Source of the DNA: Erysipelotrichaceae bacterium
GTDB taxonomy: Bacteria; Bacillota_I; Bacilli_A; Erysipelotrichales; Erysipelotrichaceae
Length of the DNA stretch: 60,765 nucleotides
NCBI GenBank assembly: GCA_013334325.1
Contig: JAAXXT010000011.1
Span: 1-60,765 of the forward strand
Direction of reading: 5' to 3'
The notes beneath the pieces were generated by a model. It did no database searches and had not been told where the DNA came from. It saw only the letters and a program-made list of their open reading frames with translations. A program made the translations under genes and the position numbers. Below, one piece after another: positions 284 through 43,406 of the stretch. Every line of letters starts with the position of its first letter. Within the stretch, counting starts at the first letter, position 1.

Positions 284-291
284 ATGTTCAC

Positions 292-1201: not shown

Positions 1202-1890
1202 TACTTAGCCCAAAAGCGCTTTTGAGCACCAGGTGTTAACGCAAGGCTTGCCTCATGGATATCTGATAAGGTATGCGCATCAGAATTCACGAAACATGGA
1301 AGATCAACATAAGTAGGATACTCTTTTAAGAAACGGTCTATTTCTTCCTCATGGACAAGTTCTACCCCATCGATAGGTAATCCTTTTGGGATAAAGCCCA
1401 ATTGGGTCATGATTCCATTCTTACGTCCATAGATGTGTGCTAATACCGCTAAACCATGGTGAGTATGGATCTTATCAAGGGTCTCTTCTAAACTCGCATT
1501 AAGTGAGAAGATCAAGGCTAGTTTCTCTTCTTCGATGATATTGTCTTCTTTATCGTAGAGATATTGATGACCAAAGAAGTTACTACGATTCATCACCTTC
1601 ATTTGAACGTGAGATAACCACGCTTGCATTTCAGGAAGATCAGCTTCATCTCTAAAGTAAGCCAAGACATGAACTTCTTCTTTCGTTTGGATCTCAACGC
1701 CATACAAGTAATTGAGATGATGTTGCTTAGCGACTTTCGCACAGATTGCTTGTTGTCTAAGGGAATTATGATCACATATCGATATGAGATCTAAACCTTT
1801 AATCTTAGCCATCTGTATGATGTTTTGAGGACTCATATCATCATCAGCACAAGGTGATAATCCTGAATGAATATGCAAGTCATAAAACAT
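1201..1890 (-). CDS. PHP-domain metal-dependent phosphoesterase
   Basis: This is a 229-residue PHP-family protein. Metal-binding motifs are visible: HIH at residues 6-8 (DLHIHS), CDH at 39-41, E66 and H74, with a late histidine in a NSDAH motif. The family hydrolyses phosphoesters with divalent metals; the substrate here is unknown. The reading frame stays open to 2010, but the upstream part overlaps the DRTGG gene, and ATG at 1890 starts directly at the PHP fold (MFYDLHIHSG), next to the upstream TGA at 1892. PHP genes are common in [FeFe]-hydrogenase operons of anaerobic Firmicutes, where their purpose is not settled. Confidence 0.8.
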   Translation of the reverse strand: MFYDLHIHSGLSPCADDDMSPQNIIQMAKIKGLDLISICDHNSLRQQAICAKVAKQHHLNYLYGVEIQTKEEVHVLAYFRDEADLPEMQAWLSHVQMKVMNRSNFFGHQYLYDKEDNIIEEEKLALIFSLNASLEETLDKIHTHHGLAVLAHIYGRKNGIMTQLGFIPKGLPIDGVELVHEEEIDRFLKEYPTYVDLPCFVNSDAHTLSDIHEASLALTPGAQKRFWAK

Positions 1891-1891
1891 A

Positions 1892-2221
1892 TCAAAGGCC
1901 CAATTGAACCAGTTTTTGAATGGTTTCGTAAGCAGGAAGCGGACTAACCAAGATCGAGATATCATTATCACGAGCACTTTGTAGAGCTTCTTCATCCATG
2001 GAATTCCCATCGATGAGGATCAATACAGAGAATTCTTTAAGTGAAGCGATTGCGATCACGTTTTGATGGGTCTGCATGGTTACCCAAGCTTGTTGAGGCT
2101 TGGCATTGCCCATGACATAAGATAATAGATCTCCTACATAGACCCCTTCGATAGGGGCTTCTAGTGGACCTGAATTGATCATGGTCCAATGAGTCAACTG
2201 AGTGAGTTCCAATACGGTCAT
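1892..2221 (-). CDS. DRTGG-domain protein (downstream copy)
   Basis: A 109-residue protein with the DRTGG fold, a small domain also found in pyrophosphatases and phosphotransacetylases. It contains the segment VYVGDLLSYVMGNA followed by an alternating beta/alpha pattern ending in a segment like those of its paralogue at 2624-3004. It overlaps the upstream ATPase gene by 4 bases (ATGA), so coupled translation is likely. Two DRTGG proteins, two GHKL ATPases and one PHP protein together form the accessory set of NADH-dependent hydrogenase operons in anaerobes. Sensing of a nucleotide or phosphate ligand is an inference. Confidence 0.75.
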   Translation of the reverse strand: MTVLELTQLTHWTMINSGPLEAPIEGVYVGDLLSYVMGNAKPQQAWVTMQTHQNVIAIASLKEFSVLILIDGNSMDEEALQSARDNDISILVSPLPAYETIQKLVQLGL

Positions 2222-2643
2222 ACGGACTCTCCTTTTTGTCTAAATCCTATTCTAAGTAATGTTCCCTTTGGTGAACTTAGAAGTTCAAAGGTATCTACGT
2301 TTTTCTTAATGTTTGGTAGACCCATACCTGCCCCAAAGCCCATCGACTGGGCATCCACTGAAGCTGTTGTCCATCCTGGTTGCATGGCCAATTCTAGATC
2401 CTCTATCCCAGGACCAGTATCTCTAAATACGATCGTGAACCAATCATCATCGACATTCAATTGGATCTGTCCTCCATGAGAATGGATGATCATATTGATC
2501 TCTGCTTCATAACAGGCCACGGCTACTCTTCTGATCATCTCAACAGACATCCCATAACTTTTCGCAATCTTTTTTATATCACTTGATATAGATCCCGCTG
2601 CGGTAAAGTCATTGGCTTCTAGATCATATGTTTTGATCATCAT
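2218..2643 (-). CDS. Anti-sigma-factor/RsbW-like ATP-binding protein
   Basis: This 141-residue protein has the compact GHKL ATPase fold of RsbW/SpoIIAB-type serine kinases. The N-box lies near residues 47-54 (EAEINMII), the G1 box is DTGPGIED near 74 and the G2 box is GFGAGMGLPN near 101. No sigma factor or anti-anti-sigma partner is encoded nearby. In hydrogenase operons such proteins occur without sigma factors, so another target is likely. The frame overlaps the upstream DRTGG gene by 20 bases and the downstream one by 4. A second ATG one codon downstream (2640) is an equally possible start. Confidence 0.8.
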   Translation of the reverse strand: MMIKTYDLEANDFTAAGSISSDIKKIAKSYGMSVEMIRRVAVACYEAEINMIIHSHGGQIQLNVDDDWFTIVFRDTGPGIEDLELAMQPGWTTASVDAQSMGFGAGMGLPNIKKNVDTFELLSSPKGTLLRIGFRQKGESV

Positions 2644-3004
2644 TGCGTGTTGCCGTTTTAAGCCCTTCTTTGTATAAGACTCCTACTGCTTCAAACATAG
2701 GCAAGGAAGTTGTAAATACATTCATTTCCATAGATGTCGCTAAGTCGATGTTGTCTTCGCTTAAGGTCTTGTTTCTACATAAGATGATCACATTGATGTC
2801 CATCATCTCAGCAGTTCTCAAAGCTTGACCATTCGCTAATCCTGTAAGTAAGATCGTTTGAGCAGGATTGGTACATATCATCGCCAAGGCATCGCTCATT
2901 AGATCTGTACAACTGACATAGAGATACTCTTTGAAAGCGATGTAGGGATCATTAACGGTAACAGGCGTTGCCTGTAAGAGTCCTATCATCGATTGGAGTT
3001 TCAT
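2624..3004 (-). CDS. DRTGG-domain protein (upstream copy)
   Basis: A 126-residue DRTGG-like protein. A variable first 30 residues is followed by a segment matching the fold of the 1892-2221 protein (YLYVSCTDLMSDALAM, then ILLTGLANGQALRTAEMMD). The two copies are clearly diverged, pointing to an old duplication and separate roles. The ATG overlaps the stop of the NuoE-like gene by 4 bases, making it the second gene of the operon. Position and company indicate a role linked to hydrogenase control, but no biochemical function can be named. Confidence 0.75.
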   Translation of the reverse strand: MKLQSMIGLLQATPVTVNDPYIAFKEYLYVSCTDLMSDALAMICTNPAQTILLTGLANGQALRTAEMMDINVIILCRNKTLSEDNIDLATSMEMNVFTTSLPMFEAVGVLYKEGLKTATRNDDQNI

Positions 3005-3495
3005 GCTTGAGGGGTATTTTCTTCTTTGATGATACGACGAATTGCGTTTTCTAATTCTTTATTGTTATTGGCATTCCCATAGACTTGTTCATCTAAAATG
3101 GCGACAGGAGCTAAACCACAGGCTCCCACACAACGTGTCGCATCTAGAGAAAACATATTGTCTTTGCTGGTTCCGTTGACAGGTGAATTGGTCAAGATCT
3201 TAACACGATCCAGTAGTAGTTGTGATCCTCTAACATAACAAGCAGTTCCCAAACATATGTTGATGACATGTTTGCCCTTAGGTTCAGTGGTAAATTGTGT
3301 ATAGAAACTGACGACCCCAAAGACTTCAGCAATAGGAACGTCCGCTCCAACACTGATTTTTTCCATGGCTTCAAATGGGATATACCCAAGTTGTTTTTGA
3401 ACGTCATGAAGCATCAATTTAACAGGTCCCTTCTTATCTTTATGCTCCGCCACAATCGCATCAATTTTCTTTAAGCTTTCAGTGCTAAGATTCAT
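3001..3495 (-). CDS. NuoE-like [2Fe-2S] subunit of NADH-dependent [FeFe]-hydrogenase
   Basis: A 164-residue NuoE-family protein. A helical N-terminal region of about 75 residues is followed by a thioredoxin-like domain with four [2Fe-2S] ligands: C81, C86 (CLGTAC), C122 and C126 (CVGAC). The motif VVSFYTQF before the cluster is typical of the family. It passes electrons between NADH and ferredoxin/hydrogenase centres in bifurcating hydrogenases and formate dehydrogenases. It is the first gene of the operon, with GAGGTAAT as ribosome binding site and a clear promoter upstream. The accessory DRTGG/GHKL/PHP genes favour hydrogenase (HydC/HndA type) over respiratory complex I. Confidence 0.88.
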   Translation of the reverse strand: MNLSTESLKKIDAIVAEHKDKKGPVKLMLHDVQKQLGYIPFEAMEKISVGADVPIAEVFGVVSFYTQFTTEPKGKHVINICLGTACYVRGSQLLLDRVKILTNSPVNGTSKDNMFSLDATRCVGACGLAPVAILDEQVYGNANNNKELENAIRRIIKEENTPQA

Positions 3496-14921: not shown

Positions 14922-15980
14922 TTAACTTGTAGGAAGCACTAAGGTTTCAGGGGTCAAGAATTTGACCGTTTCTGTGGTAACCTTATGATCCTTATAAAGA
15001 TAACTAATCGTAAAGTAGTATTCTGTATTAGGTTTCAAATAACTATTGATGTCTCCTCCATTATAGGCTTCACTATTATCGATAAGGATCGTATTCTCAT
15101 TATGATCCGTGATCCATCTAAGATAGCCATCATCTGGATAAGATGGGGTAGGGTTAGATTCTGAAATAACGACTTTATAACCATTTAGACAATCACAATC
15201 TTCCATTGTCCAAGATAGTCTTAGACCAGCCTCAGCAACTTCAACATTAAGAATCAAGCTACTTGGATCCAGTGGGGTCTCTTCTTCAGGAACACTCAGT
15301 TCTGATGGGGTAGTGAAATGAATGGTTGGGGTAGTTACTTTCGATTCATTATAAAGATACGTGATCGTAAAGTAATACTCTGTATCTGCCTTTAGATAAG
15401 AATCAATATCGCCTCCATTATAGGCTTCGGAGTTATCGATGATGATTGTGGTCTCATCTCTATCTGTGATCCACCTTAAGTATCCATCATCTGGATAAGA
15501 AGGATTAGGATTGTTTTCTGAGATGACGACTTTATAACCTCTTAAGTCTTCACTGGTTTCTTTCGTCCATGTGAGTTTCAATCCACCTTCAACTGCGACT
15601 ACTTTTAATCTTAGATCCAAAACAGGATCAGGTTTAGGATCTACAGGATCAGGTTTAGGATCTACGGGATCTGGATCTTTTTCTTCAATTGGTGGATCGA
15701 CTTCTTCTACAGGATCCTCCTGATCAACATTCTCTACAATGATTTCTGGAGGATTCTTTGTATCCTCTTTTAATAGATCCTTTAGATCAGCGATCTCATC
15801 TTCTAGAGCTTTGATCTTTTCATCTTGTTTATCTACCTGAGCAAATAAACGACTGACCATTTGAAAGACATCCACTTCCCCATTGGTGGCGACAGCCAAT
15901 ACAGGTTGAAAAACAACTGCCATCAATAGAAGAGAGCCAAGTATTCCAAGAACTACTTTCTTTGTGGATCGTTTAGACAT
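14922..15980 (-). CDS. Secreted coiled-coil protein with two fibronectin type III-like repeats, under c-di-GMP riboswitch control
   Basis: A 352-residue exported protein. It has an N-terminal basic/hydrophobic signal segment (residues 1-31, ending near LAVA), a short coiled coil (about 45-72, ALEDEIADLKDLL), an acidic proline-rich linker with DPKPDPV repeats (about 85-125), and two FN3-like domains (about 127-225 and 242-345). The two domains share near-identical stretches such as PSYPDDGYLRWITD and NSEAYNGGDI. No catalytic domain or cell-wall anchor is visible, suggesting a surface or matrix/adhesion role. Start supported by AAGGAGGAAACTT. A cyclic-di-GMP-I riboswitch and terminator precede the gene, linking it to the motile/sessile switch. 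Confidence 0.82.
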   Translation of the reverse strand: MSKRSTKKVVLGILGSLLLMAVVFQPVLAVATNGEVDVFQMVSRLFAQVDKQDEKIKALEDEIADLKDLLKEDTKNPPEIIVENVDQEDPVEEVDPPIEEKDPDPVDPKPDPVDPKPDPVLDLRLKVVAVEGGLKLTWTKETSEDLRGYKVVISENNPNPSYPDDGYLRWITDRDETTIIIDNSEAYNGGDIDSYLKADTEYYFTITYLYNESKVTTPTIHFTTPSELSVPEEETPLDPSSLILNVEVAEAGLRLSWTMEDCDCLNGYKVVISESNPTPSYPDDGYLRWITDHNENTILIDNSEAYNGGDINSYLKPNTEYYFTISYLYKDHKVTTETVKFLTPETLVLPTS

Positions 15981-19714: not shown

Positions 19715-20704
19715 TTATTCAGCTAAGGCTTTGATGTCTTGATAGGCTTTTAGATCTGTATAGAGATCTGCTTTATAAGGATTACGTTTAGTCTTGACGA
19801 TCTTGAAGATCATATAGATGAATACCGCAAGGTTGATGGCTAAAGATAAAGCCCCCAAGATTGTATAAATCGTAGGATTATAAGTCGAGTTCACCATGAA
19901 CTTTCCTTGGTCTTGAAAGAAAGGAAAAGTCTGGGCAAACATACACCAAATGGCTAAGGTCTGAGCACGATGTTGAAGCCAAGCACCTTTACCTAAAGTA
20001 AAGGCGCATAGAGTAGGCGCGATCAATAATGCTAAGCCAGCATACCAAGAATGGGTAGGTATACAGTTGTAGGTATAAACGAAGTTCCAGATATCATAAG
20101 CGATGATCCAAAACCACAATAGATCAGGCCAAAGCATATCTCTACTTGAATCTTTTTTAGATACTTGACGAATAACGATCCCAAACCAACCTGTAATACA
20201 GATGATGTTTAAAATGCCTGCGATCGCATTCATATAGTTCCAAGGTCCGCCTAAGACCCCAATGACTTCCCCTTCGATGGCGCCTGAATGAACCAACCAA
20301 TAGGTTGATCCAACTTCGAAATCACGCGCAACAGCTTCTAAGATATTGATGGCTAAGATGAGTGGAGGAAAACATAATGCGATCTTACTAGAGGCTAGTT
20401 TCCAGTTGATCTTCCCTGTTACTTTGTCTTTCTTTTCGATATGTCTTATCGCCCAAAATCCAATACTACCTATGGTCGCAGAATAGACTTTCGCTAAATG
20501 AAACCAATCTGTATACGTTGTTTCTTTTAAGGTCGTAAACCATAATACAGTCAAGACGATAGGCAAGGCTGTAAAGCTTACTAAGCCTGCCCATTTGTAT
20601 CGACGAGCCACTTCATTAAACACAAACAAAGAAGCACATACAACCAGTAGCATCATCACAGCCAAGGCAAATGATGAGCCCTCCGCAAGATTAAATGTAA
20701 ACAT
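19715..20704 (-). CDS. DUF5692-like polytopic membrane protein
   Basis: A 329-residue protein with about eight to nine transmembrane helices. The segments GPWNYMNAIAGI and WFWIIAYDIWNFVYTYNCIPTHSW suggest the DUF5692 family, of unknown function; this name is from memory and not secure. It is the last gene of the operon hypB-oxidoreductase-hypA-NicO-like transporter, 28 bases after the transporter, with AAAGGATAAAAC as ribosome binding site. Its place suggests involvement in the same nickel/redox process. No metal-binding histidine cluster is evident. Confidence 0.65.
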   Translation of the reverse strand: MFTFNLAEGSSFALAVMMLLVVCASLFVFNEVARRYKWAGLVSFTALPIVLTVLWFTTLKETTYTDWFHLAKVYSATIGSIGFWAIRHIEKKDKVTGKINWKLASSKIALCFPPLILAINILEAVARDFEVGSTYWLVHSGAIEGEVIGVLGGPWNYMNAIAGILNIICITGWFGIVIRQVSKKDSSRDMLWPDLLWFWIIAYDIWNFVYTYNCIPTHSWYAGLALLIAPTLCAFTLGKGAWLQHRAQTLAIWCMFAQTFPFFQDQGKFMVNSTYNPTIYTILGALSLAINLAVFIYMIFKIVKTKRNPYKADLYTDLKAYQDIKALAE

Positions 20705-20732
20705 GTTTTATCCTTTCCGATAAAAGTATCTG

Positions 20733-21437
20733 TTATATCCCAAGGGTCAATATCATGACCCCACATAAGGTGATGGCTAACCCAGCCATCGGATGAGCAA
20801 ACTTCTCTAAGCTTTTAAGCTGGATCGCTTTGATGCCTTTGACTCCTATATAAGTCATTGCCATCATCGATAGGATCGTACATACAGAGAAAGCCGCTGT
20901 GACTTCAATTAATACAAGCGTATTTTGAGTCGCTGCAGGAAACATAAGAAGTGGGATCAAGGGTTCACAAGGTCCCAACACAAATAGAATGAAGAGCCCC
21001 CAAATCAAATTCAGATTTGATTTTGGTTTAGCTTGATGATGATCATCAACGCTTTCGATATGATGATGATCATGGGTGATGATTTCCCCGTTGATCTTAT
21101 GCGTATGAGGTTTATTCTTATACATGTTTCTTAAACTGATGCCTGTATAGATGAATCCAAACACGATCATAAAGTAGGTCGCTAAGGTTCCTCTTATACT
21201 TTCGATGTTGACTAAGAAGGATAAGCTTTGGCTCATAAGGATTCCTAGTAAACCAAACAAAGCTGAACTTAAGACATGACCTATCCCACAGATCACTACG
21301 ATGCCCATCGTCTTTCTCATCGACCAAGCATTGGCTTTTGAAAGAACGACGAAGGGAACATAATGATCTACTCCGATAAGGGTATGGACGACACCTATAA
21401 AGACAGCTGTAGATAGTAAGACATTGATTTCGTTCAT
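20733..21437 (-). CDS. NicO/UreH-like metal (probably nickel) transporter
   Basis: A 234-residue protein with about six transmembrane helices. Helix I carries HTLIGVDH (residues 18-25), resembling the histidine/aspartate motif of nickel/cobalt permeases. A histidine-rich cytoplasmic loop (HTHK, then HDHHHIE and DDHHQ, about residues 111-134) is typical of metal transporters, followed by LGPCEPLIPLL. It follows hypA by 9 bases, supporting nickel supply to HypA/HypB. The direction of transport is uncertain, since RcnA-type exporters look similar. Confidence 0.78.
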   Translation of the reverse strand: MNEINVLLSTAVFIGVVHTLIGVDHYVPFVVLSKANAWSMRKTMGIVVICGIGHVLSSALFGLLGILMSQSLSFLVNIESIRGTLATYFMIVFGFIYTGISLRNMYKNKPHTHKINGEIITHDHHHIESVDDHHQAKPKSNLNLIWGLFILFVLGPCEPLIPLLMFPAATQNTLVLIEVTAAFSVCTILSMMAMTYIGVKGIKAIQLKSLEKFAHPMAGLAITLCGVMILTLGI

Positions 21438-21446
21438 TTACCCTCC

Positions 21447-21788
21447 TTAACAAACAATGATTTCTTTTATGATGAATTCTTTACCAGTAAGCAAGGTCCA
21501 ATCCTTTGTTTGACAGATAGGACAATGACCTTCACTGTCGACGATATTGAACACCTGATCACAATGATCACAATTCGCAGTCGCTTTTACGATCTCGATG
21601 ACAAGCTTTGTCTTCTCTAGCATCGTTCTATCGACTGCAGCAGGATAGCATTCTTCGATGTATCTAGGGATCATAGAAGAGATCTCACCGATCTGAAGAA
21701 CGATAGAATCTACTTCAGTGATATTATTTTCTATCGCGATCGCTTCTACTTGTTTAGCGACTTCGATGATGACACTCAATTCATGCAT
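21447..21788 (-). CDS. hypA: Hydrogenase/nickel maturation chaperone HypA
   Basis: A 113-residue HypA. The MHE nickel-binding N-terminus (H2, E3) is intact, and the zinc site comprises C73, C76, C89 and C92 (CDHC and CPIC). HypA hands nickel to HypB and on to [NiFe]-hydrogenase or urease. No HypC-F genes or [NiFe]-hydrogenase subunits are in the window, and the hydrogenase operon at the left edge is of the [FeFe] type, which needs no nickel. The target may be another nickel enzyme or lie elsewhere. It is 8 bases downstream of the large oxidoreductase gene. Confidence 0.92.
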   Translation of the reverse strand: MHELSVIIEVAKQVEAIAIENNITEVDSIVLQIGEISSMIPRYIEECYPAAVDRTMLEKTKLVIEIVKATANCDHCDQVFNIVDSEGHCPICQTKDWTLLTGKEFIIKEIIVC

Positions 21789-21796
21789 AGGACGCC

Positions 21797-24493
21797 TTAA
21801 GCTTCTTCTTTAGAAAATGATTTCTTAATATTCTTAGCGATGATCTTCACTTCACGAGTCAAGGCTGTTCTTACGACTAAAGGTTTCACATCTTCAAATG
21901 AAGCTCCACCTGAGTTATAGGTTCTAACCAACTTGATCGCATCAAACTTACACTTGGTTGTACATTGACCACAACCTACACACTTGTATTCATCGATCGT
22001 AGTCGCACCACAACCTAAGCATCTTTCAGTTTCTTTCTTGATCTGAGCTTCGGTGAAGGTAGGTCGTCCATCTTTGAAGGCATCTGTGCCTTTATATTTG
22101 GTTGTATCATGTGTACTTTGTCTTGGTAGACGATCATAGCTTTCTAAATCTAGGTTGTCTTTATCGATCGCTACATAGTCTCTTCTATCTCTACCATTGA
22201 CTAAACTTTGACCTGGTTGAACAAATCGATGAATGGATATCGCACCTTGTTTACCCGCTGCGATCGCATCGATGGCGAAACGAGGTCCTGTATAGCAATC
22301 CCCTCCTGTAAAGACATCTTTTTGATTGCTTTGATAGGTAAAGCCATCAGCTTGTAGAGTCATATTAGGGTTGAAGCTTGCGCTTGTGTCTTCTAAGAGC
22401 TTGCCCCAATCCATAGCTTGTCCTACAGAAACCAAGACATTATCTGCCTCAACGAAGATGACTTCGTTTTCGTTATATATCGGACTGAAACGTTTATTGG
22501 CGTCAAAGACGGATACACACTTCTTAAATTCGACTCCTTTTAAGACCCCATTCTCAACGACGATACGTTTTGGGCCCCATGAGTTATTGATCTTGATGCC
22601 TTCTTCAAATGCTTCTTCGATCTCTTCAGCCAAAGCAGGCATTTCTGGACGGCTTTCTAAACAAAGCATATCTACTTGACTGGAGCCTAGACGAACTGCT
22701 GTTCTAGCCACATCGATCGCTACGTTTCCTCCACCGATGACGACTGTTTTGCCTTTAAGCTCATTGAAGGATCCTAGATTGACTTCTCTTAGGAAATCTA
22801 CGCCTGTCAGTACCTTAGGATGATCTTCTCCTTCGATTCTTAAACTACGACCTTTTTGAGCACCTATAGCCACATAGAATGCTTTATAATCTTGAGCTCT
22901 AAGCTCATTTAGAGTAATATCTTTTCCTACTTCAATGCCTGTCTTGAATTCAACTCCGAGTTCTCTTAAGATATCGATCTCAGCGTTGATGACTTCTTTC
23001 TCTAAACGATAATTAGGAATACCTAGGGTCAACATGCCTCCTAAGACTTTTTGTTTTTCAAATACTGTGACTTTATAACCATCTACAGCTAGGTAGAATG
23101 CGCAAGATAGACCAGCAGGACCTCCACCGATCACAGCGATCTTTTTCCCATAGTTATGTTTTATCTTAGGGATATAACGATGTGTCTCATTGAGATCTTG
23201 CTGAGCGATGAACTTCTTGATCTCATCGATGGCGACCGCTTGATCGACGCCACAACGAGTACAGGCTGTTTCACATTTATGAGGACAGATACGACCACAT
23301 ATGGCTGGGAAAGGATTCTCATGTTTGATCAATTCTAATGCTTCTTTATACTTACCTAATGAGGCAAGTTTTACATAACCTTGAACAGCGATATGAGCAG
23401 GACACTCTGTCTTACAAGGACTGGTTCCAGTCGCAGTAACATCGGTTCTATTGGTTCTATAGTCGGTATTGAACTTCTCAGGACCCCATTTTGTATCTCT
23501 AGGATTATCTAAAGGTTTAACTTTTGTTGGGTTGATTTGAGTCAACTTAGTGCCTAAACGAGCCGCATTGGTAGGACAGTTTTCAACACATTCTCCACAC
23601 GCAACACATTTATCTTTATCGACATGAGCCACATAGTTCGATCTCACCATATCGGAATTACTGTACATTTGAGCAATACGCATCGCAAAGCATGAACATC
23701 CACAACAGTTACAGATCGCATGGGTCTTACCTGTCCCATCAAAGTTAGGAATCTGATGCATAAGGCCATTTTCTTCAGCCTTTTTGATGATCTCAAAAGC
23801 TTCTTCACGGGTGATCTCACGACCTCTACCAGTACGAATGTAGTATTCAGCTGCGTGATCCAATTGGATACACATGTCTTCTTTTAAGTGACCACAGCCT
23901 TCTCCCATAACTTCACGAGAGGTTCTGCATGAACAATCAGATACGGTAAACACATGAGCTTCATTGAGATATTTTGAGATCTCTTCATAAGACGCTCTAC
24001 GAGTTTCTCCTGAGATCGCTGTTTCAACTGGGATAACACGCATAACACCTACACCTACAGGAAACTTACCTACGCTCATCGGTCCTACGATACGACCATA
24101 TTCTTCAAAAGCCATGGCGATTTCTGGATATTTCTTGACGTTTGCTTTATTGTTGACCATCATTTCCATAATGCCTGGAACCCATGTGTCATACCAATAA
24201 ACATCAACGCCTTCCTTTTTATTGACGAAACATACCCCCGCTAAACTAAGTTCCCACGCCAACTTCTCAACGAGTTCTACAGGTTTACCACACAACTTGG
24301 CCAATTCTTCTGCGCTTTTAGGTTTTCTAAAATCCATCACCAAAGCGACTTCAGCCATCTCATCGGTTACTACAGGAGCTAAGATCTTATAGCGAGGATC
24401 TTCTGCGGTATAGGCTCCTTTTGAGCCCATCTTTTTTCCCCCTACTTTGTTCGCAAATTCTAATACTTTAAGCTTGACGACTTTCTCACTCAT
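21797..24493 (-). CDS. Multidomain iron-sulfur/FAD pyridine nucleotide oxidoreductase (GltD/NfnB-like core)
   Basis: An 898-residue fusion. The N-terminal 310 residues hold unusual cysteine motifs CSCR (about 187) and CNCCGC (about 271), then a [4Fe-4S] motif CVACGECVENCP (about 296). A GltD-like [4Fe-4S] domain follows (cysteines about 360-415), then FAD- and NAD(P)-binding Rossmann folds (IGGGPAGLSCAFYL near 456 and VVIGGGNVAIDVAR near 590), and a C-terminal ferredoxin region (CLGCG, then CVGCGQCTTKC). It probably moves electrons between NAD(P)H and ferredoxin or a partner. ATG at 24493, preceded by AAAGGAG, overlaps hypB by 8 bases. Confidence 0.82.
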   Translation of the reverse strand: MSEKVVKLKVLEFANKVGGKKMGSKGAYTAEDPRYKILAPVVTDEMAEVALVMDFRKPKSAEELAKLCGKPVELVEKLAWELSLAGVCFVNKKEGVDVYWYDTWVPGIMEMMVNNKANVKKYPEIAMAFEEYGRIVGPMSVGKFPVGVGVMRVIPVETAISGETRRASYEEISKYLNEAHVFTVSDCSCRTSREVMGEGCGHLKEDMCIQLDHAAEYYIRTGRGREITREEAFEIIKKAEENGLMHQIPNFDGTGKTHAICNCCGCSCFAMRIAQMYSNSDMVRSNYVAHVDKDKCVACGECVENCPTNAARLGTKLTQINPTKVKPLDNPRDTKWGPEKFNTDYRTNRTDVTATGTSPCKTECPAHIAVQGYVKLASLGKYKEALELIKHENPFPAICGRICPHKCETACTRCGVDQAVAIDEIKKFIAQQDLNETHRYIPKIKHNYGKKIAVIGGGPAGLSCAFYLAVDGYKVTVFEKQKVLGGMLTLGIPNYRLEKEVINAEIDILRELGVEFKTGIEVGKDITLNELRAQDYKAFYVAIGAQKGRSLRIEGEDHPKVLTGVDFLREVNLGSFNELKGKTVVIGGGNVAIDVARTAVRLGSSQVDMLCLESRPEMPALAEEIEEAFEEGIKINNSWGPKRIVVENGVLKGVEFKKCVSVFDANKRFSPIYNENEVIFVEADNVLVSVGQAMDWGKLLEDTSASFNPNMTLQADGFTYQSNQKDVFTGGDCYTGPRFAIDAIAAGKQGAISIHRFVQPGQSLVNGRDRRDYVAIDKDNLDLESYDRLPRQSTHDTTKYKGTDAFKDGRPTFTEAQIKKETERCLGCGATTIDEYKCVGCGQCTTKCKFDAIKLVRTYNSGGASFEDVKPLVVRTALTREVKIIAKNIKKSFSKEEA

Positions 24494-25166
24494 GCGATAC
24501 TCCTTTCCAGTTTTTGACTTCTTCTTTGACCCAATCACAGAACTCAGGGATTCCTTCACCTGTTCTTGCGGAAATCGGGATGATTTTTATGTTTGGATTC
24601 AATTTTAAGACACGTGCTTTACAAAGCTCAATATCGAAATCAAAGACAGAAAGGACATCGATCTTATTGATGAGTAGCACATCACAGATCTGAAACATCA
24701 AAGGATATTTCAAAGGCTTATCATCGCCTTCAGGTACACTTAGGATCATCGCATTCTTACTACTTCCTGTATCGAATTCTGCAGGACATACAAGATTGCC
24801 TACGTTTTCTAGGATAACCAAATCAAGCTCATTGACACCTAAACCAGCGAGACCTTGTTTGGTCATACCAGCATCTAAGTGACACATCCCACCTGTATGA
24901 AGTTGGATGACTTTAGCGCCCGTCTTAGCGATTGTGATCGCATCGACATCTGAATCTATGTCTGCTTCCATAACACCGATCTTAAGTTCATTCTTTAAAA
25001 GATTGATGGTTCTGGTTAAGGTCGTAGTCTTACCTGAACCAGGTGAAGACATAAGATTTAATAGAAAGATCCCCTCATTTTTTAGATCTATTCTCAGTTG
25101 ATCTGCTTGTCTGTCGTTTTTCTCAAAAACCGCTTGTTTGATTTCTAGAATTTTGAATTCTGACAT
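24486..25166 (-). CDS. hypB: Nickel-inserting GTPase HypB
   Basis: A 226-residue HypB. The P-loop is SPGSGKTT (residues 41-48), the metal site includes CHLDAGM (C95, H96), and ENVGNLVCP plus INKID (G4 motif) are present. The N-terminal CxxCGC nickel motif and His-rich stretch of some HypBs are absent. It drives GTP-dependent nickel transfer with HypA. ATG at 25166 follows GAGAGGACAAATC; an in-frame upstream start would lie over the promoter. First gene of the operon, with a palindrome between its -35 and -10 boxes. Confidence 0.93.
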   Translation of the reverse strand: MSEFKILEIKQAVFEKNDRQADQLRIDLKNEGIFLLNLMSSPGSGKTTTLTRTINLLKNELKIGVMEADIDSDVDAITIAKTGAKVIQLHTGGMCHLDAGMTKQGLAGLGVNELDLVILENVGNLVCPAEFDTGSSKNAMILSVPEGDDKPLKYPLMFQICDVLLINKIDVLSVFDFDIELCKARVLKLNPNIKIIPISARTGEGIPEFCDWVKEEVKNWKGVSHE

Positions 25167-25207
25167 GATTTGTCCTCTCGATATGGGCTTAAATGCTTCT
25201 TGTGAAC

Positions 25208-25236
25208 ATAATAACATAACACTTGTTATGTTTCAA
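25208..25236 (-). promoter_or_regulatory. Promoter of the hypB operon
   Basis: On the minus strand TTGAAA (25231-25236), a 17-base spacer, and TATTAT (25208-25213), leading to hypB 42 bases on. The spacer is almost entirely filled by a palindrome, the arrangement expected for repressor-controlled promoters. Confidence 0.75.
25213..25232. promoter_or_regulatory. Perfect 20-bp palindrome, probable TetR operator
   Basis: Arms AACATAACA and TGTTATGTT are exact complements around CT. The site lies between the -35 and -10 boxes of hypB and 81 bases before the divergent TetR gene. Size and position fit a TetR-family operator. The regulator's ligand is unknown; metal or redox signals are possible. 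Confidence 0.72.
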
Positions 25237-25283
25237 TACCCTTTTTAACTAAATTGAGCTACAATAAAGGTGTAAACAAAGTA

Positions 25284-25300
25284 AGCATAAAAAATATGCT
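25284..25300. repeat. Short inverted repeat before the tetR start
   Basis: AGCATA and TATGCT flank five A, 12 bases before the tetR ATG. It could be a second control site or an mRNA hairpin near the ribosome binding site. Its arms differ from those of the 25213 palindrome. Confidence 0.3.
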
Positions 25301-25312
25301 AAACTTGAGGTA

Positions 25313-25933
25313 ATGAATCAAACCATGAGCGAACTTCCCCTGAATAAACGAAAACAGCATCTCTTAGAATCAGCCATCCGTGTTTTCTCCGTGAAGGGTT
25401 TTGATGATGCGAGTATGCGTGAGATCGCTGCAGAAGCTGGTCTAACGACAGGTGCTATTTATCATCACTATAAAAACAAGGACGACCTTTTTTATGATGC
25501 TGTAAAAGAAGCAGCTTACTTCGTTCATAAGTTATCTGAACGCAACGAAAACAGCACTTTAAAAACCAACCAAGAGATGTTTAATGAGATCAGTGCCAAC
25601 GTAAGGGATAGAATGTCTAAAGATGTTGAACAGAGGTTACTTATTTTATTGGCTGCTTATGCGATGAGTAAAGGTGGTCGTATCCAAGAAAAGTATAAAC
25701 AAGACTATACCGAGATCATCCAGAAAGTCGCAGATATGTATTTCTTTGCCTTTGGGGTAGAGAATCTTGCCTATCAAAAAAGCTTAGCTGCCATCTTAGT
25801 AGCCGCCTTAGATGGGGTTGCCTTACAATACTCATTAGGCATACTAAAGTTCGATGATGAAGCCTTCAAAGATACCTTCATTACATTCTTCGCTGAAAGT
25901 ATTCCCGCCTTCCTTAGAACCCATAGAAAATAA
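25313..25933 (+). CDS. TetR/AcrR family transcriptional regulator
   Basis: A 206-residue TetR-type repressor. The N-terminal HTH (about residues 13-60) includes LLESAIRVFSVKGFDDASM and IAAEAGLTTGAIYHHYKNK, with the recognition helix in the latter. The C-terminal ligand domain is helical and unrecognised. It is divergent from hypB; a palindrome in the hypB promoter is its likely operator. ATG at 25313 has TTGAGGT just upstream. Probable repressor of the nickel/oxidoreductase operon. A terminator follows. Confidence 0.9.
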   Translation: MNQTMSELPLNKRKQHLLESAIRVFSVKGFDDASMREIAAEAGLTTGAIYHHYKNKDDLFYDAVKEAAYFVHKLSERNENSTLKTNQEMFNEISANVRDRMSKDVEQRLLILLAAYAMSKGGRIQEKYKQDYTEIIQKVADMYFFAFGVENLAYQKSLAAILVAALDGVALQYSLGILKFDDEAFKDTFITFFAESIPAFLRTHRK

Positions 25934-37198: not shown

Positions 37199-38980
37199 TT
37201 ATTTCTTAACGATATAGATCATAGACCAATAACTTAAGGTAGGGACTTTAACGGTGATTCCATCTTTACTGGTCTTAAACTCAAGCTTCTGGCTTAAACC
37301 ACCGTTGATATCTGGAGAAGCAAAATAGACACCATCAATGAGTTCTGAATCGATTGGTATATTTACCACTAAGTCTTTTTGAATAGTAGGTTCAATTGTA
37401 TTATCGAAATCATCTCTCCATAATGTATCTTTCTTATTAAGGAAGTTTAATAAATGAACAACTTTATACTGCTCATTTTCTTTAGAGAATAACCAAATCG
37501 ATTTCGCAGCAGGAAGTGAATTAAATTTCAAATCATCTAGAGTAAGACCACTGTTGTCTTCATCTAAGTCTCCTCTTAATAGATTCTCATACGCAACCAT
37601 AAAATCACCATACTCGATCATCTTATTTGTTAGATTATCCGTCATACTCAATTTATTGTTTGGGAAATATTCACTCGACAACATCCCTAGATCACCCATC
37701 GACAGATGAGCCCCACCAGAAGCTAATATCACGGATTCTGTATAGAGTACCGCAGCTGTATTGAAGTTACCTGTTTTCTTAGGGTAATTCATATAGCTCG
37801 CCAATACAGAAGCATATCCATTCTTAATATCCTTATCGATGATACCCTTTAAGCTAGAATAGGTAGGATATCTATCCGGCCACACTTCTGTATACGCAAA
37901 GTCTATACTCTTGGTTTTAGAGATTTCAGTTTTAGCGTATTCACTTACGAAGTTAAAGAGAATGCCTTGGTTCAATTTTGATTTTAGGTTTACTGTAAAT
38001 TGAGCCATAGCTGTTTCCATATTTACAAGTTTACCTGAAGAGTCATACAATGTCCCTCGGTTACCTAAGGTATCAAGATGCATAATATCGAATCCAAAAT
38101 ATGTATTGGCTTCATTTTCCATGTGTAGATAATGGTCTTGCCAAAGTGTACTCGATGGATTTACAAGATATAGATCGCTTGCCCAAGAATTAGGCAAATC
38201 ATGCTTATCTTGAGTATTTTGTCCATTGTCTTTATACAGAGCGATTTCTTTGTTTTTAGTAGCGAAATCTTCATAGACTCCATACACTAAGTTATAATTG
38301 GCTGCTTTCATATTTCTATCATGAAGATTCGTAATGTACGAGATCACTTTTGATGAATAGACTCTGTTATTGGCGATGTTTAGCCATGATTCATCCAGAT
38401 TGCCTGAGCTTAGTGATACCGGTTGATCGTGTCTATATTGCCAATCATAGAAGAGAAAACCTGTTAGATGATATCGATTTAATCGATCAATTGTTTCTTC
38501 ATTTTCATTTTCTGTAGTTAAGCTAAAATCAGCAAGATAACCATATCTAGGGAAGACTTCCCAAGTCGATGAGACATCTACACCTATGGTTTGTTGGTCA
38601 ATGACCTTATCTTGATCAAGTAGATAAACACTGACAAGATACCCTGTGTAGTCCACAAGTGGTGGTGTCCAATCAAAGATGATCGAAGATGAATCTTCTA
38701 ATAGATCTTGTGTTTCTTCATATACCATTTTTTCTAGATGAGTGACTTCTATCTTAAATGTAGCCTCACTTGAGAGATCCTTTTCTGCATCAAATAGTAT
38801 TTCGAGTTTAACCTTATCTCCAAGCTTGTATCTTGCCTTATCTGTTTGAAGTGACTTTATGATTCCTGAATCATAGGTATTCTCAATCTTTACAGAACAC
38901 GCTGATAAAGAAAAAAGCATCATTAAAATGATGCTGAGTTGAATATCTTTTCTAATGCTTATTTGTCTTAGTTTCATCAT
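37199..38980 (-). CDS. Lipoprotein glycoside hydrolase family 66 (dextranase-type)
   Basis: A 593-residue exported enzyme. The N-terminus is a lipoprotein signal peptide with lipobox LSAC (C28). An Ig-like domain (about 40-135) is followed by the GH66 barrel: PRYGYLADF (about 144-152), FYDWQYRHD, the nucleophile D303 in FDIMHLDTLG and the acid/base E365 in FAYTEVWPD. GH66 enzymes cleave alpha-1,6-glucan (dextran) or make cycloisomalto-oligosaccharides. It would act at the cell surface, releasing oligosaccharides for the ABC transporter of this operon. It overlaps the GH13 gene by 4 bases and is last in the operon. Confidence 0.87.
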   Translation of the reverse strand: MMKLRQISIRKDIQLSIILMMLFSLSACSVKIENTYDSGIIKSLQTDKARYKLGDKVKLEILFDAEKDLSSEATFKIEVTHLEKMVYEETQDLLEDSSSIIFDWTPPLVDYTGYLVSVYLLDQDKVIDQQTIGVDVSSTWEVFPRYGYLADFSLTTENENEETIDRLNRYHLTGFLFYDWQYRHDQPVSLSSGNLDESWLNIANNRVYSSKVISYITNLHDRNMKAANYNLVYGVYEDFATKNKEIALYKDNGQNTQDKHDLPNSWASDLYLVNPSSTLWQDHYLHMENEANTYFGFDIMHLDTLGNRGTLYDSSGKLVNMETAMAQFTVNLKSKLNQGILFNFVSEYAKTEISKTKSIDFAYTEVWPDRYPTYSSLKGIIDKDIKNGYASVLASYMNYPKKTGNFNTAAVLYTESVILASGGAHLSMGDLGMLSSEYFPNNKLSMTDNLTNKMIEYGDFMVAYENLLRGDLDEDNSGLTLDDLKFNSLPAAKSIWLFSKENEQYKVVHLLNFLNKKDTLWRDDFDNTIEPTIQKDLVVNIPIDSELIDGVYFASPDINGGLSQKLEFKTSKDGITVKVPTLSYWSMIYIVKK

Positions 38981-40590
38981 TCAAGCTCAAAGGCATATGC
39001 ATCATACGGCATTAGGTCGAGTTCTTGATGAATTGGTGAATCTGTATTTGAGATGATTTTTTTGATTATACGACTTGGTATCTTATAATGGGTTTTCTGA
39101 TTCCCATAGTTCGCAACGATCAAAATACGTTTATGTTCATCTTGTCTTTCATATACAAATAAATGTTGATCTTTTGGTTCTAAAAGAGTAAATCTTCCAT
39201 CTTGGATAAGATCACTATAATCACTGTCTTTACGTAATTGGATAAGTGATCTATAGAAATTATAGACTGAGTTCTTATCATCGATCTGCTTTTCAGCGTT
39301 GACTTCCTTATAGTTCTTACAGAGTGGTAACCATGGTTTAGCTATTGAGAAACCTGCATTAGGAGAAGCATCCCATTGCATAGGTGTTCTTACATTGTCT
39401 CTTCCAAAAATACTGGCTGATTTTAAGAACGCTTCTTCAGATAATAAAGCACGATCGATAACGAGATCTTGATAGGCATTGATTGTCTCTACATCGACAT
39501 AATCCGATATAGTACTGAATCGTGCATTAGACATCCCTAATTCTTCACCTTGATATATAAACGGAGTGCCTTGCATAAAGTAGTTGATGAGGGCGAAAAA
39601 CTTAGCTGAGTGAACTGGATTAATCAAATCATCATTCCATCTAGAAATGATTCTTGGCATATCATGATTATTCCAAAACAAGGAGTTCCAGCCTTGGCCC
39701 ATCATACTGATCTGCCAATTACTAAGCACTTCTTTTAGTTTTACGAAATCCAAAGCACAAGGTTTCCATTTACCTAATGTCTCATCCCAATCAATCTTCA
39801 TATGGTCAAATTGAAAGATCATACTGAATTCAGAGCCATCTGGATTAGAATATTGTTTGGCTATTGGGATATCGACATTCCAACATTCTCCTACTGTAAG
39901 CGTGTTTCGTTTTCCAAAAGTAGCTTTATTCATTTCTTTAATGTAGGTATGGAGTTGAGGTCCATTGGCAGTTACCATAGATAAAGGTTCCTTCCCAATG
40001 TATTCAATGACATCGAATCGAAATCCTTCTATCCCTAGATCAAGCCAGATGTTCATCATCTGATATATTTCATTTCTTAATGCTTTGTTTTTCCAATTCA
40101 AATCAGGCATCTTCTTACTAAATAAGTGAAGAAAATATTCCTTTGTTTCCTCGTTGTATTCCCAAGCAGAACCTGAGAATGTACTAATAAGTGAGTTGGG
40201 TTCTTTCGCCCATACATAAAAGTCATTTGTACGATTTGATTTATTCTTACGACCTTCTATAAACCATTTATGTTCATCAGAAGTATGATTGAGTACTAAA
40301 TCTAAAATGATCTTGATATTACGATCTTGGGCTTCTTTAATCAATTGTTTCATGTCTTCCATAGATCCAAAAAGAGGATTGATCGATAGATAATCACTGA
40401 TATCATAGCCATTATCATCCATAGGAGAAGCATACACAGGTGAAAGCCATATGACGTCTATCCCCAATTTTTCTAAATAGTTTAGTTTACTGATCAAACC
40501 TTGAATATCACCAACCCCATCCCCATTTGAGTCCATAAATGATTTAGGATAGACTTGATAAACGACAGACTTCTTCCACCAATTTTTCAT
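38977..40590 (-). CDS. GH13 alpha-glucosidase (oligo-1,6-glucosidase / dextran glucosidase type)
   Basis: A 537-residue cytoplasmic GH13 enzyme. Conserved regions are DLVLNHTSDEH (about 97-107), the nucleophile D193 in GFRFDVIE, the acid E235 in TVGECWN and D310 in NNHDMPR. The start MKNWWKKSVVYQVYPKSF is typical of oligo-1,6-glucosidases and DexB. ATG at 40590 is preceded by GGAGATTAAT. It would hydrolyse imported isomalto-oligosaccharides to glucose, working after the GH66 enzymes. Confidence 0.92.
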   Translation of the reverse strand: MKNWWKKSVVYQVYPKSFMDSNGDGVGDIQGLISKLNYLEKLGIDVIWLSPVYASPMDDNGYDISDYLSINPLFGSMEDMKQLIKEAQDRNIKIILDLVLNHTSDEHKWFIEGRKNKSNRTNDFYVWAKEPNSLISTFSGSAWEYNEETKEYFLHLFSKKMPDLNWKNKALRNEIYQMMNIWLDLGIEGFRFDVIEYIGKEPLSMVTANGPQLHTYIKEMNKATFGKRNTLTVGECWNVDIPIAKQYSNPDGSEFSMIFQFDHMKIDWDETLGKWKPCALDFVKLKEVLSNWQISMMGQGWNSLFWNNHDMPRIISRWNDDLINPVHSAKFFALINYFMQGTPFIYQGEELGMSNARFSTISDYVDVETINAYQDLVIDRALLSEEAFLKSASIFGRDNVRTPMQWDASPNAGFSIAKPWLPLCKNYKEVNAEKQIDDKNSVYNFYRSLIQLRKDSDYSDLIQDGRFTLLEPKDQHLFVYERQDEHKRILIVANYGNQKTHYKIPSRIIKKIISNTDSPIHQELDLMPYDAYAFELE

Positions 40591-40591
40591 A

Positions 40592-41794
40592 TTAATCTCC
40601 AAAAACTGAGTTAAACTCTCCAAGTAGAATAGAGTTATTCACGATCTCATTGGTTACGATCTGAGCCATACCGATAACGAACTTTTCATTGACTAAAACA
40701 GTGAAACAGATTTCAGTTTCCATTTTAGCTTTCTTATAGAACCAATTCTCTCTGATGATCTCTTTAAGATAAGTTTCAAGCAATTCAGTATCGACTTCTT
40801 TTTTGACACCTATGATGATGCGTTGTGGATTCATCTGCATGATGAGATTGATGACAGCGATCCCAACGAAGTTATAGACTTCCAGCATCGTCTCATCGAC
40901 GATCTTCTTATCGACGACGTTTTCTCTAAAGACTTGATTATAGGTCACCGTTTGACCGATCTTCTGTTCAATACGATGTAATACTTCATCTTCATTGACA
41001 TACATTTCTAAACAACCGTGTTGACCACAGTAGCACTTCTTACCACCTGGGAATAATATTTGATGGCCTATTTCACCAGCTCCACCAAACTCACCTTTAT
41101 AAAGCTTCCCATTGATGATGATCCCAGAACCAACACCTTCCCCAACGGTCATACAAACAAAGCTATTATGACCTTTACCAAACTCAGAGTTAAGTTGATA
41201 AACCGCAAATGCGTTGACGTCGTTTTCGATGAAGATTACAACTCCAAATTCTTTTTTAAGATCATCACATAGATGAATATTACTCCAACCTAATAAGGTC
41301 GATGAGATCAACATTCCTTTATCGTCATCAACGATACCACTTATGGTGATCCCTATCGCAAATACTCTATCTTGATTCATAAGATGAAGTTCTTTGATCA
41401 ATATAGGTAATAATTCTTCATAGCTTGTCCCGATCTTAAAATCAGTAACAGAAGTTGAAATAATACTTGGTTCTAAATTACATAATGCAATAATCAATTT
41501 AGAAGCTTCTATCTTAACACTTAAGATAAAGCCAAAATCGTTATTAAACTTTAAATTAATTGGTTTTCTTCCCCCGGTAGAGGTCCCATCTCCAACTTCA
41601 AGAATCAATCCATCTTCTATGAGTGGATTGATAATTTTAGTGATGGTCGACTGGGCAAGACCAATCTCTTTACTGATCTCAGCTCGACTAATCAAATCGT
41701 GGGATCGTATGGCATTGATACAATGATAAATATTGATATCCTTTATCAGATCTTTATTGCCAGTACGATTGTTTATCGTTCTATCAACTTTCAT
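40592..41794 (-). CDS. ROK family transcriptional regulator (sugar-responsive repressor)
   Basis: A 400-residue XylR/NagC-type ROK protein. An N-terminal winged HTH (about 28-70; RAEISKEIGLAQSTITKIINPLIEDG) is followed by a sugar-kinase-like domain with ENDVNAFAVYQ, GEGVGSGIIING, GGAGEIGHQ and the zinc motif CYCGQHGCLE. Kinase residues may be degenerate. It lies inside the sugar operon between the GH66 and GH13 genes, overlapping the upstream GH66 stop. It probably represses the operon via the palindrome at 46459-46483 in the absence of an isomalto-oligosaccharide or glucose signal. Confidence 0.9.
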   Translation of the reverse strand: MKVDRTINNRTGNKDLIKDINIYHCINAIRSHDLISRAEISKEIGLAQSTITKIINPLIEDGLILEVGDGTSTGGRKPINLKFNNDFGFILSVKIEASKLIIALCNLEPSIISTSVTDFKIGTSYEELLPILIKELHLMNQDRVFAIGITISGIVDDDKGMLISSTLLGWSNIHLCDDLKKEFGVVIFIENDVNAFAVYQLNSEFGKGHNSFVCMTVGEGVGSGIIINGKLYKGEFGGAGEIGHQILFPGGKKCYCGQHGCLEMYVNEDEVLHRIEQKIGQTVTYNQVFRENVVDKKIVDETMLEVYNFVGIAVINLIMQMNPQRIIIGVKKEVDTELLETYLKEIIRENWFYKKAKMETEICFTVLVNEKFVIGMAQIVTNEIVNNSILLGEFNSVFGD

Positions 41795-43406
41795 ATTGCA
41801 TGTACACCATTGTCCAATATTGGATCTTATCAATCGTAAACTCTACTGCTTCCCCATGTTCATGAGGAACAATTCTATGCTCTACTTTTAACATTTTACC
41901 ATTTAGATCATCAGGACTGGCAATATACACCTCTTTGATCTTCTTGGTATTTAAAATACGAATCGTTGTATTAAGGATTGGTTCTGGTGTTTCTTTCTGA
42001 TCATACCAAACTGATTCTTTTTGATTGCTTAGATTGATCAGATTGATTGAACTATACTCTTTAGCTTTTCCTAAGATCGCATAGAGATATCCAGGTTCAG
42101 CTTTTATAGAGGTTGGTTTATTGATATAGAAGTCTGTATTGGTTCCATCATAACCACCAAATGAAGTATAAGAAAGATCAACTTTATCTCCATAAAGGAT
42201 CTCACTGTATTTGACGATAAAATCTAGGTATTGTTTGACCTTAGAACCAAAGGCATCACTATACTTCTTATAGTCTACATAGTAAGCATTGCTTAATATC
42301 CCATTATATTCTCCATAGAGTAGATTATAGGCTCCTAATGAGCTGCATATCGCATGCATAAGCAAAGCACCATTCTCGGAAAGCTCAACATTTTCTTGTG
42401 TCTTAAATGGAGGTAAATAGGCTGCTAAAACGATAGGTCTATTTTGAGATCTTAGTTTACCTTCAACGATGATCCTTCTAAGATCTTCATAGGTATTGTT
42501 TGGATTCCATACTTCTATGTAGACTACATCTTGTTTAGAATCGACGATGGTTTCTATTGGCCAATTATTGACATAATTAAAATCTATAAACAATTCCTTC
42601 TTTAATCCATTTAATTCCTTCAATACTAAATTTATAAAATCAGGCAACTCTTTCTCAAAGTCGATAAGTTCCCCATTCTTTCTTAATGAGTATTTAGGAA
42701 AGCCATATTGATCAAGATGGATCCCATCGAAATCCTTTATAGTAATAGCCTTTTTAAATTCATTGATGATGTGTTTTGACCAAGAGTGATCAATGGATAT
42801 ATCCATCATGCCTATTTGATCAAGAAGTGCGAAATACTTACCATCAGTTCTATACATCAATTCATCCATATGGACACTAAAATAATCGCTTTCAGCCCCA
42901 TAGATGGCCCCATACGCAACCGCAAACATTCCATACTTATGACAAAGATTAATTTTGTCTTTCAATATCCTATTGTCGATTTCACGTCCAAAGAAATCAG
43001 CATAAACAGTCTCCTCATTGATCAGATCATCATGACGATACATCCAGTCATAGAATTGGATGGTCGTAAGATGATAATCATTGAGTTGCTCAAACATAGA
43101 TTCATGATCTTCATCGATGGTCGTAAAGTTACTTACGAATCCATATCTAGGAACATCCGTTAGTTTCTTTACCACGTCGAATGCCGTGGTTTGTCCTTCA
43201 ACGTTGATAGAATATCCACCTAAGGGATATACACCAATCTTGACTGTATTTCTACCTTCCTTTAAATCGAAGCTCATATTTTTTATCACTTCATAAAGAT
43301 GGGTAACTGTAACTTCAGCTTTTGTTTGAGTATCAGAATAAATGATGAGTTGAACTTCTTCGAGTAAGCGATAAGCGCACTTATCCATTGTTATTTTATT
43401 GATCAT
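41784..43406 (-). CDS. Cytoplasmic glycoside hydrolase family 66 enzyme
   Basis: A 540-residue GH66 enzyme without signal peptide. PRYGFVSNF (about 86-94), FYDWMYRHD (about 118-126), nucleophile D232 in FDGIHLDQYG and acid/base E298 in VVYIEVWNP match the lipoprotein paralogue at 37199-38980. C-terminal beta domains end in the similar IQYWTMVYM stretch. An intracellular GH66 is unusual beside an extracellular one; it may cut imported long or cyclic isomalto-oligosaccharides. It is 3 bases after the MalG-like permease gene. Confidence 0.87.
   Translation of the reverse strand: MINKITMDKCAYRLLEEVQLIIYSDTQTKAEVTVTHLYEVIKNMSFDLKEGRNTVKIGVYPLGGYSINVEGQTTAFDVVKKLTDVPRYGFVSNFTTIDEDHESMFEQLNDYHLTTIQFYDWMYRHDDLINEETVYADFFGREIDNRILKDKINLCHKYGMFAVAYGAIYGAESDYFSVHMDELMYRTDGKYFALLDQIGMMDISIDHSWSKHIINEFKKAITIKDFDGIHLDQYGFPKYSLRKNGELIDFEKELPDFINLVLKELNGLKKELFIDFNYVNNWPIETIVDSKQDVVYIEVWNPNNTYEDLRRIIVEGKLRSQNRPIVLAAYLPPFKTQENVELSENGALLMHAICSSLGAYNLLYGEYNGILSNAYYVDYKKYSDAFGSKVKQYLDFIVKYSEILYGDKVDLSYTSFGGYDGTNTDFYINKPTSIKAEPGYLYAILGKAKEYSSINLINLSNQKESVWYDQKETPEPILNTTIRILNTKKIKEVYIASPDDLNGKMLKVEHRIVPHEHGEAVEFTIDKIQYWTMVYMQYES

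Follow-up and report, generated by a model that had tools for sequence, protein, structure and literature searches.

Positions 1-60,765 of contig JAAXXT010000011.1 of an Erysipelotrichaceae bacterium, referred to here as the window, contain at 19715-25933 a compact locus in which genes encoding the nickel chaperones HypB and HypA flank a gene encoding an 898-residue Fe-S/flavin oxidoreductase (Table 1). The order on the minus strand is hypB, the oxidoreductase gene, hypA, a gene for a 234-residue membrane protein with a histidine-rich loop, and a DUF5692 gene; a TetR-family gene is divergently oriented. This gene set had been listed in a preliminary description of the DNA, and its positions and families were borne out by Pfam and NCBIfam searches. 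Because the intergenic gaps are only -8, 8, 9 and 28 nt, with hypB overlapping the start codon of the oxidoreductase gene, the five minus-strand genes very likely form one transcript.

Table 1. Features of the locus (window positions) and genes of the polyunsaturated fatty acid isomerase (PAI) type beside the oxidoreductase gene at other loci (L numbers denote loci)
Feature	Position	Strand	Evidence
TetR-family repressor, divergent from the operon	25313..25933	+	PF00440, 60.5 bits
Predicted TetR operator, AACATAAC-N4-GTTATGTT, perfect 8-bp arms	25213..25232	.	conserved arms
hypB, nickel GTPase, 226 aa from ATG 25166	24486..25166	-	TIGR00073; lacks N-terminal metal domain
IsrA-type (clade 9) Fe-S/flavin oxidoreductase, 898 aa	21797..24493	-	Fer4_20, Pyr_redox_2, two Fer4 sites
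Winged-helix-like part of its N-terminal domain, residues ~30-110	24164..24406	-	AlphaFold2 model; winged-helix matches
Cys6 site (C187, C189, C208, C261, C263, C268 with R190, H246, N262), putative Ni/Fe-S active site	23690..23935	-
GltD/NfnB-type module: Fer4_20 (two [4Fe-4S]), FAD and NAD(P) binding	22253..23425	-	PF14691, PF07992
C-terminal Fe-S ligands C825-C848	21950..22021	-	Cys invariant in alignment A1
hypA, nickel metallochaperone, MHE start and two CxxC	21447..21788	-	PF01155, 96.4 bits (cut-off 28.9)
Membrane protein, 234 aa, histidine-rich loop (HTHKINGEIITHDHHHIESVDDHHQ), DsbD_2-like, possible nickel transporter	20733..21437	-	PF13386
DUF5692 membrane protein	19715..20704	-	PF18948, 386.5 bits
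PAI-type gene	L129:5313-6713
PAI-type gene	L117:6996-8408
PAI-type gene	L110:7149-8561
PAI-type gene	L104:186-1625
PAI-type gene	L076:7410-8819
PAI-type gene	L063:4436-5824
PAI-type gene	L089:1-630
PAI-type gene	L007:3706-5007

Both chaperones retain the residues expected of them. HypB exceeds the cut-off of its equivalog model TIGR00073 by a wide margin (249.9 versus 121.2 bits) and has the Walker A motif and the CH-xn-C motif, present in 65/65 and 64/65 of its relatives, respectively; HypA retains the MHE of its nickel site together with two CxxC pairs, the pairs being found in 63/63 relatives. The histidine-loop protein, a candidate for a nickel transporter of the NicO/NiCoT kind, reached only DsbD_2 in the Pfam and NCBIfam searches (28.4 bits, weakly above the cut-off). 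Among all loci this protein is confined to the window lineage. At another locus, in a Clostridium, a metal-type ABC importer (periplasmic-binding protein, FecCD and ATPase; L033:12189-15144), possibly for nickel, lies directly 3' of hypA.

The order of all six genes, including the five-gene order whose conservation the preliminary description had left to be checked, is identical in two genomes of another genus, G034 and G077 (G numbers denote surveyed genomes). The proteins are 59-82% identical, with 77-78% for the TetR orthologue, which has the same place, and 61% for the histidine-loop protein. The same operator arms, around a different centre, are found at the same position in both, and in each of the three genomes the operator is the sole site at up to two mismatches; by chance, 0.02 such sites would be expected in the window. 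The conserved gene order together with an operator unique in the genome is reported here for the first time. Because the operator is conserved and single in each genome, TetR is presumably a dedicated local switch responding to the substrate. A longer hypB open reading frame (ORF) starts at ATG 25217, which falls within the operator, and the true start is probably ATG 25166 (MSEFKIL), matching relatives. Searches of three further genomes from the same genus as the window yielded no full-length enzyme.

We next describe the oxidoreductase itself. Its central module (residues 357-759) is the Fer4_20 plus FAD/NAD(P) unit shared with NfnB, GltD and the N-terminal part of dihydropyrimidine dehydrogenase, and it matches PDB entries 9bov, 8oh5 and NfnA 9n5u. 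However, the NfnB/GltD models of NCBIfam do not cover the whole protein (best match 361-880 of 920, below the cut-off): they leave out the first 285 residues and the Fe-S region at the C terminus, and no partner subunit is present. The N-terminal part contains a domain in which C187, C189, R190, C208, G243, H246, C261, N262, C263 and C268 are among the residues invariant in 61 homologues. The six cysteines of this Cys6 site, with R190, N262 and the single invariant histidine H246, are likewise invariant in a set of 64 homologues. The motifs CSCR and CNCCGC had been described as rare; this does not hold, since C-x-C-R and C-N-C-x4-C are invariant in the 61 homologues and the extra cysteines C264 and C266 (CNCCGCSC) mark one clade, that of the window enzyme. 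For the cysteine domain we found no Pfam family and no relative by sequence in the PDB. An AlphaFold2 model (predicted local distance difference test 81, predicted template modelling score 0.82) begins with a winged-helix-like part. In a fold search with the N-terminal 345 residues, all matches were to winged-helix structures and fell within residues 7-140, the best reaching Z 8.1 across 85 residues. The cysteine domain alone matched nothing in the PDB (Foldseek E no better than 1.4; no chain reached Z 2), a result that is no proof of a new fold. Thus a domain with six invariant cysteines and one histidine, for which no solved relative was found, is described here.

The closest described system is IsrA (VUZ27132.1) of Acetobacterium wieringae, a putative isoprene reductase of 901 residues that showed a 10.7 log2-fold induction by isoprene and was the only redox protein so induced; the authors suggested as its active site a Cys6 cluster that might bear nickel (PMC10134865). 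Strain Y of A. wieringae reduces isoprene and butadiene, whereas ethene, propene and fumarate are not reduced (PMC9765523). We compared IsrA with the window enzyme by its published description (ISORED-2 and strain Y; PMC10134865, PMC9765523). Both have about 900 residues and consist of an unassigned N-terminal domain, Fer4, Fer4_20, FAD/NAD(P) and a C-terminal Fer4 region. IsrA has six close cysteines with CxC at 180/182 and 254/256; the window enzyme has C187/C189 and C261/C263, with an equal spacing of 74, plus C208 and C268. In both cases hypA and hypB are neighbours and the genome lacks a [NiFe] hydrogenase. Beside 988 IsrA homologues, the fractions tabulated in 2023 were 0.73 for HypA, 0.56 for HypB, 0.40 for DUF5692 and 0.21 for TetR (PMC10134865). 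Because this family with its HypA, HypB, TetR and DUF5692 neighbours had been tabulated, the proposal of a nickel-dependent redox system not yet described stands only in part: nickel is the best inference, whereas a system of this kind was described in 2023 as IsrA/clade 9 (PMC10134865). No later paper on the family was found in the library that was searched. By its sequence, the window operon is a member of the IsrA/clade 9 kind but not the isr operon itself. The isr operon comprises isrA, two hypA genes, hypB and a gene for a 350-residue 4Fe-4S ferredoxin; the window operon has one hypA, lacks the ferredoxin gene, and adds the putative histidine-loop transporter, DUF5692 and TetR. The transporter is not mentioned for the IsrA clade, and the window enzyme has two further cysteines. 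The isr operon in the strict sense is marked by induction by isoprene and by a 26-residue stretch (756-782) that only IsrA and Pelotomaculum share.

Few nickel-requiring enzymes are known, and where HypA/HypB pairs are well characterised, their client is [NiFe] hydrogenase or urease. We consider here what the pair in the window genome (G000; 1.95 Mb, 98.8% complete), which was searched by single families, might serve. A complete [NiFe]-hydrogenase locus elsewhere in the genome, which the preliminary description had named, along with a non-conserved gene order, as grounds for refutation, is absent: neither HypD nor a [NiFe] large subunit was found (HypC, HypE and HypF were not searched separately), and a distant [NiFe] locus was rejected as the client of HypA and HypB. 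Neither carbon monoxide dehydrogenase (CODH) nor urease was found, nor LarA above the cut-off, with one weak Lar_N match of 18.8 bits; the search did not include Ni-glyoxalase and acireductone dioxygenase. With no clear client among these, HypA and HypB most likely serve the oxidoreductase.

A survey of 115 genomes of the window's bacterial family, with HypB counted above its curated cut-off, is in line with this. A full-length oxidoreductase is present in 24 genomes, HypB in 31 and a [NiFe] large subunit in 7. HypB is accompanied by the oxidoreductase or a [NiFe] large subunit in 29 of its 31 genomes, and 23 of the 25 HypB genomes without [NiFe] carry the oxidoreductase. Conversely, 23 of the 24 oxidoreductase genomes have HypB, the sole exception being 81% complete. 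This tracking of HypB is new here. HypD is absent from 18 of 23 named genomes of several lineages that carry the enzyme. In a HypB tree, the proteins from oxidoreductase loci are split from the [NiFe]-linked HypB of the same bacterial family (support 100/99), and the window HypB clusters with HypB of the same enzyme clade. HypA and HypB of the window are true members of the [NiFe]-hydrogenase maturation set (HypABCDEF), but the genome lacks HypD and the [NiFe] large subunit, and its HypB belongs to a separate lineage. We are confident that the pair serves this oxidoreductase. Delivery of nickel to a distant enzyme, which would leave the oxidoreductase a bystander, was the other possibility put forward at the outset; LarA is present in G034 and G077, and the weak Lar_N match and the two nickel enzymes outside the search would leave it some room. 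It is largely refuted, and we consider it highly improbable, given the genome without [NiFe], HypD, CODH or urease, the way in which HypB follows the oxidoreductase across the 115 genomes, and the overlap of hypB with the oxidoreductase start codon.

Other arrangements of these genes were observed. Loci of a second clade (L116, L118, L120, L122 and L138-L144) have a tandem hypB pair, often in the order hypB-hypB-oxidoreductase-hypA, and the copies fall on different branches of the HypB tree, which suggests that their roles differ. In Clostridium sp. Marseille-P2415, several oxidoreductase-hypA pairs lie in a row (L037:8932-20667).

The case of genome G010 is also new here: it has HypB but neither the full-length oxidoreductase nor a [NiFe] large subunit. 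Its hypA and hypB adjoin a gene for a 387-residue protein that consists of the C-x-C-R...C-N-C domain followed by a dicluster ferredoxin and lacks the flavin part, which argues that the chaperones go with the cysteine domain. This single case is as expected if metal enters the N-terminal cysteine domain. Locus L119:9385-11451 is an operon for a 387-residue stand-alone cysteine-domain/ferredoxin protein, an 84-residue HypA without the zinc arm, and HypB.

The metal delivered by the chaperones is a separate question. We consider it probable, with some reserve, that nickel ends in the Cys6 site. Alternatively, HypA and HypB could act on the enzyme with another metal or as helpers of Fe-S assembly, the site then being an all-iron cluster resembling a double-cubane or P-cluster. 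Six to eight cysteines and one invariant histidine could hold such an 8Fe or double-cubane cluster, as the IsrA authors considered likewise, and nickel content in the family is deduced rather than measured; however, the intact nickel site and CxxC pairs of HypA, the CH-xn-C and Walker A motifs of HypB, the co-encoded putative histidine-loop transporter and the fact that characterised HypA/HypB pairs carry nickel make this alternative unlikely.

A tree of 98 homologues separates two clades. One has CNCC-x-C-x-C and contains the window enzyme and members from Clostridia, Treponema, Desulfobacterales and other groups; the second is larger, has CNC-x4-C and comes mostly from gut and rumen bacteria. 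One divergent sequence with the CNCC motif lies elsewhere on a long branch. DUF5692 is present in exactly the five genomes of the 115 that have a CNCC-clade enzyme, and in other lineages it accompanies both enzyme types. In a Pfam census of 190 neighbours, the only clearly recurring non-core genes were those for GntR-FCD and TetR regulators. Directly upstream of the oxidoreductase gene of Pseudobutyrivibrio ruminis lies an ORF for a 242-residue protein with weak similarity to CdhC (the beta subunit of CODH/acetyl-CoA synthase, PF03598; L099:8234-8962), which was rejected as a nickel partner because it recurs in one further locus only, seven genes away. In G020, genes for a flavoprotein of the Amino_oxidase fold (RetSat/CrtI-like) and a 2Fe-2S ferredoxin-reductase-type protein lie between hypA and the DUF5692 gene (L113:10608-13303).

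The sister clade provides an indication of the substrate. The isomerase-type protein of L129 matches PDB 2b9w (E 4e-114), which we take to be the P. acnes polyunsaturated fatty acid isomerase. Such a PAI-type isomerase is encoded in 9 of the 115 genomes, all 9 of which have the oxidoreductase, against an expectation of 1.9 (P 2e-7; by genus, 7e-5). At L129, L117, L110, L104, L076 and L007 the gene is co-directional with the oxidoreductase gene and adjacent to it or in the same operon; the order at L129 is isomerase-hypB-hypA-oxidoreductase, and the isomerase gap at L117 is 12 bp. This co-occurrence is new here, and we did not find the link in the IsrA papers; the 2023 paper does not list fatty acids among the substrates of IsrA (PMC10134865). 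It is established that PAI forms conjugated linoleic acid (CLA) (PMC2885616; also Liavonchanka 2006, as cited in PMC13365329), and the known biohydrogenation route isomerises the fatty acid to a conjugated diene, which is then reduced (PMC6037716). CLA reductases were reported earlier (Hughes 1982 and Fukuda 2007, as cited in PMC4478896). From their gene neighbourhoods, the PAI-type and oxidoreductase genes of these gut and rumen bacteria are candidate isomerase/reductase pairs for fatty-acid biohydrogenation, resembling PAI and CLA reductase as an isomerise-then-reduce pair encoded in one operon; however, the window genome lacks the PAI-type gene, and the earlier CLA reductases are matched by role, not by sequence.

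We consider it probable, though well short of certain, that enzymes of this family reduce conjugated double bonds, and less so for the window member. HypA and HypB could also serve an enzyme acting on something else, either another reductase or an Nfn-type electron-transfer or bifurcating enzyme. The GltD/NfnB-like central half is a module of many enzymes, the window has no substrate gene, and its clade shows no isomerase link; conversely, no NfnA-like partner subunit is present, IsrA stands alone among redox proteins in its response to isoprene (PMC10134865), and the isomerase link of the sister clade points to conjugated double bonds. We regard a different substrate as rather doubtful.

On balance we lean towards reading the operon as a substrate-inducible, self-sufficient unit for an IsrA-type, probably nickel-containing, Cys6-cluster reductase of conjugated dienes. 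TetR would occupy the single operator between the divergent genes and be released by a ligand, presumably the substrate. The GTPase HypB and HypA would then fill the Cys6/His site in the N-terminal domain with a metal, nickel being the most likely, part of it possibly supplied by the histidine-loop transporter. Electrons would pass from NAD(P)H via FAD and four [4Fe-4S] clusters to the Cys6 site, where a conjugated C-C double-bond system in an otherwise unactivated hydrocarbon chain would undergo a two-electron reduction. In the sister clade of gut and rumen bacteria, the linoleate isomerase encoded next to the enzyme probably produces the diene, which would be a conjugated fatty acid.

Several observations weigh against this reading. 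The PAI-type isomerase has no match in the window genome, and the link is confined to the other clade. The P-values of its co-occurrence with the oxidoreductase count related genomes as independent observations and are rough guides only. Oleate hydratase, reported beside an A. woodii homologue, was rejected as a companion gene, as it showed no association with the oxidoreductase (4/28 versus 5.8 expected). The assignment of IsrA is based on proteomics, and A. wieringae relatives without IsrA have homologues of 47-49% identity, yet do not reduce isoprene (PMC10134865). No purified family member is known, and we found no report in the literature of nickel measured in one.

A bolder proposal is that the N-terminal domain is a new nickel/Fe-S active site, loaded by dedicated HypA and HypB without HypC-F, which hydrogenates unactivated conjugated double bonds, and that the sister-clade enzymes encoded with a PAI-type isomerase are the CLA reductases of biohydrogenation; we put this forward tentatively. 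If nickel is shown in the family, the list of nickel enzymes would gain a new entry whose site lacks a solved relative. The isomerase link makes the conjugated fatty acid reductase of many rumen and gut anaerobes a question that can be addressed directly by expression, and it is relevant to trans fats in milk and meat as well as to the anaerobic loss of isoprene.

Elsewhere in the window, the neighbouring hydrogenase had been assigned to the [FeFe] type. A search of the window found no [FeFe] catalytic motif, but the assignment is plausible because the ORFs at 2-3495 resemble the start of a HydB/HydC-type cluster, with PHP and kinase-like genes, that is cut by the window edge. Positions 37199-43406 contain two genes of glycoside hydrolase family 66 (GH66, dextranase-type) with alpha-amylase-family and ROK genes between them and a sugar-type ABC transporter adjoining. 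Finally, the gene at 14922-15980 encodes a secreted-looking protein of 352 residues that carries a DPKPDPV repeat and contains two domains similar to each other.

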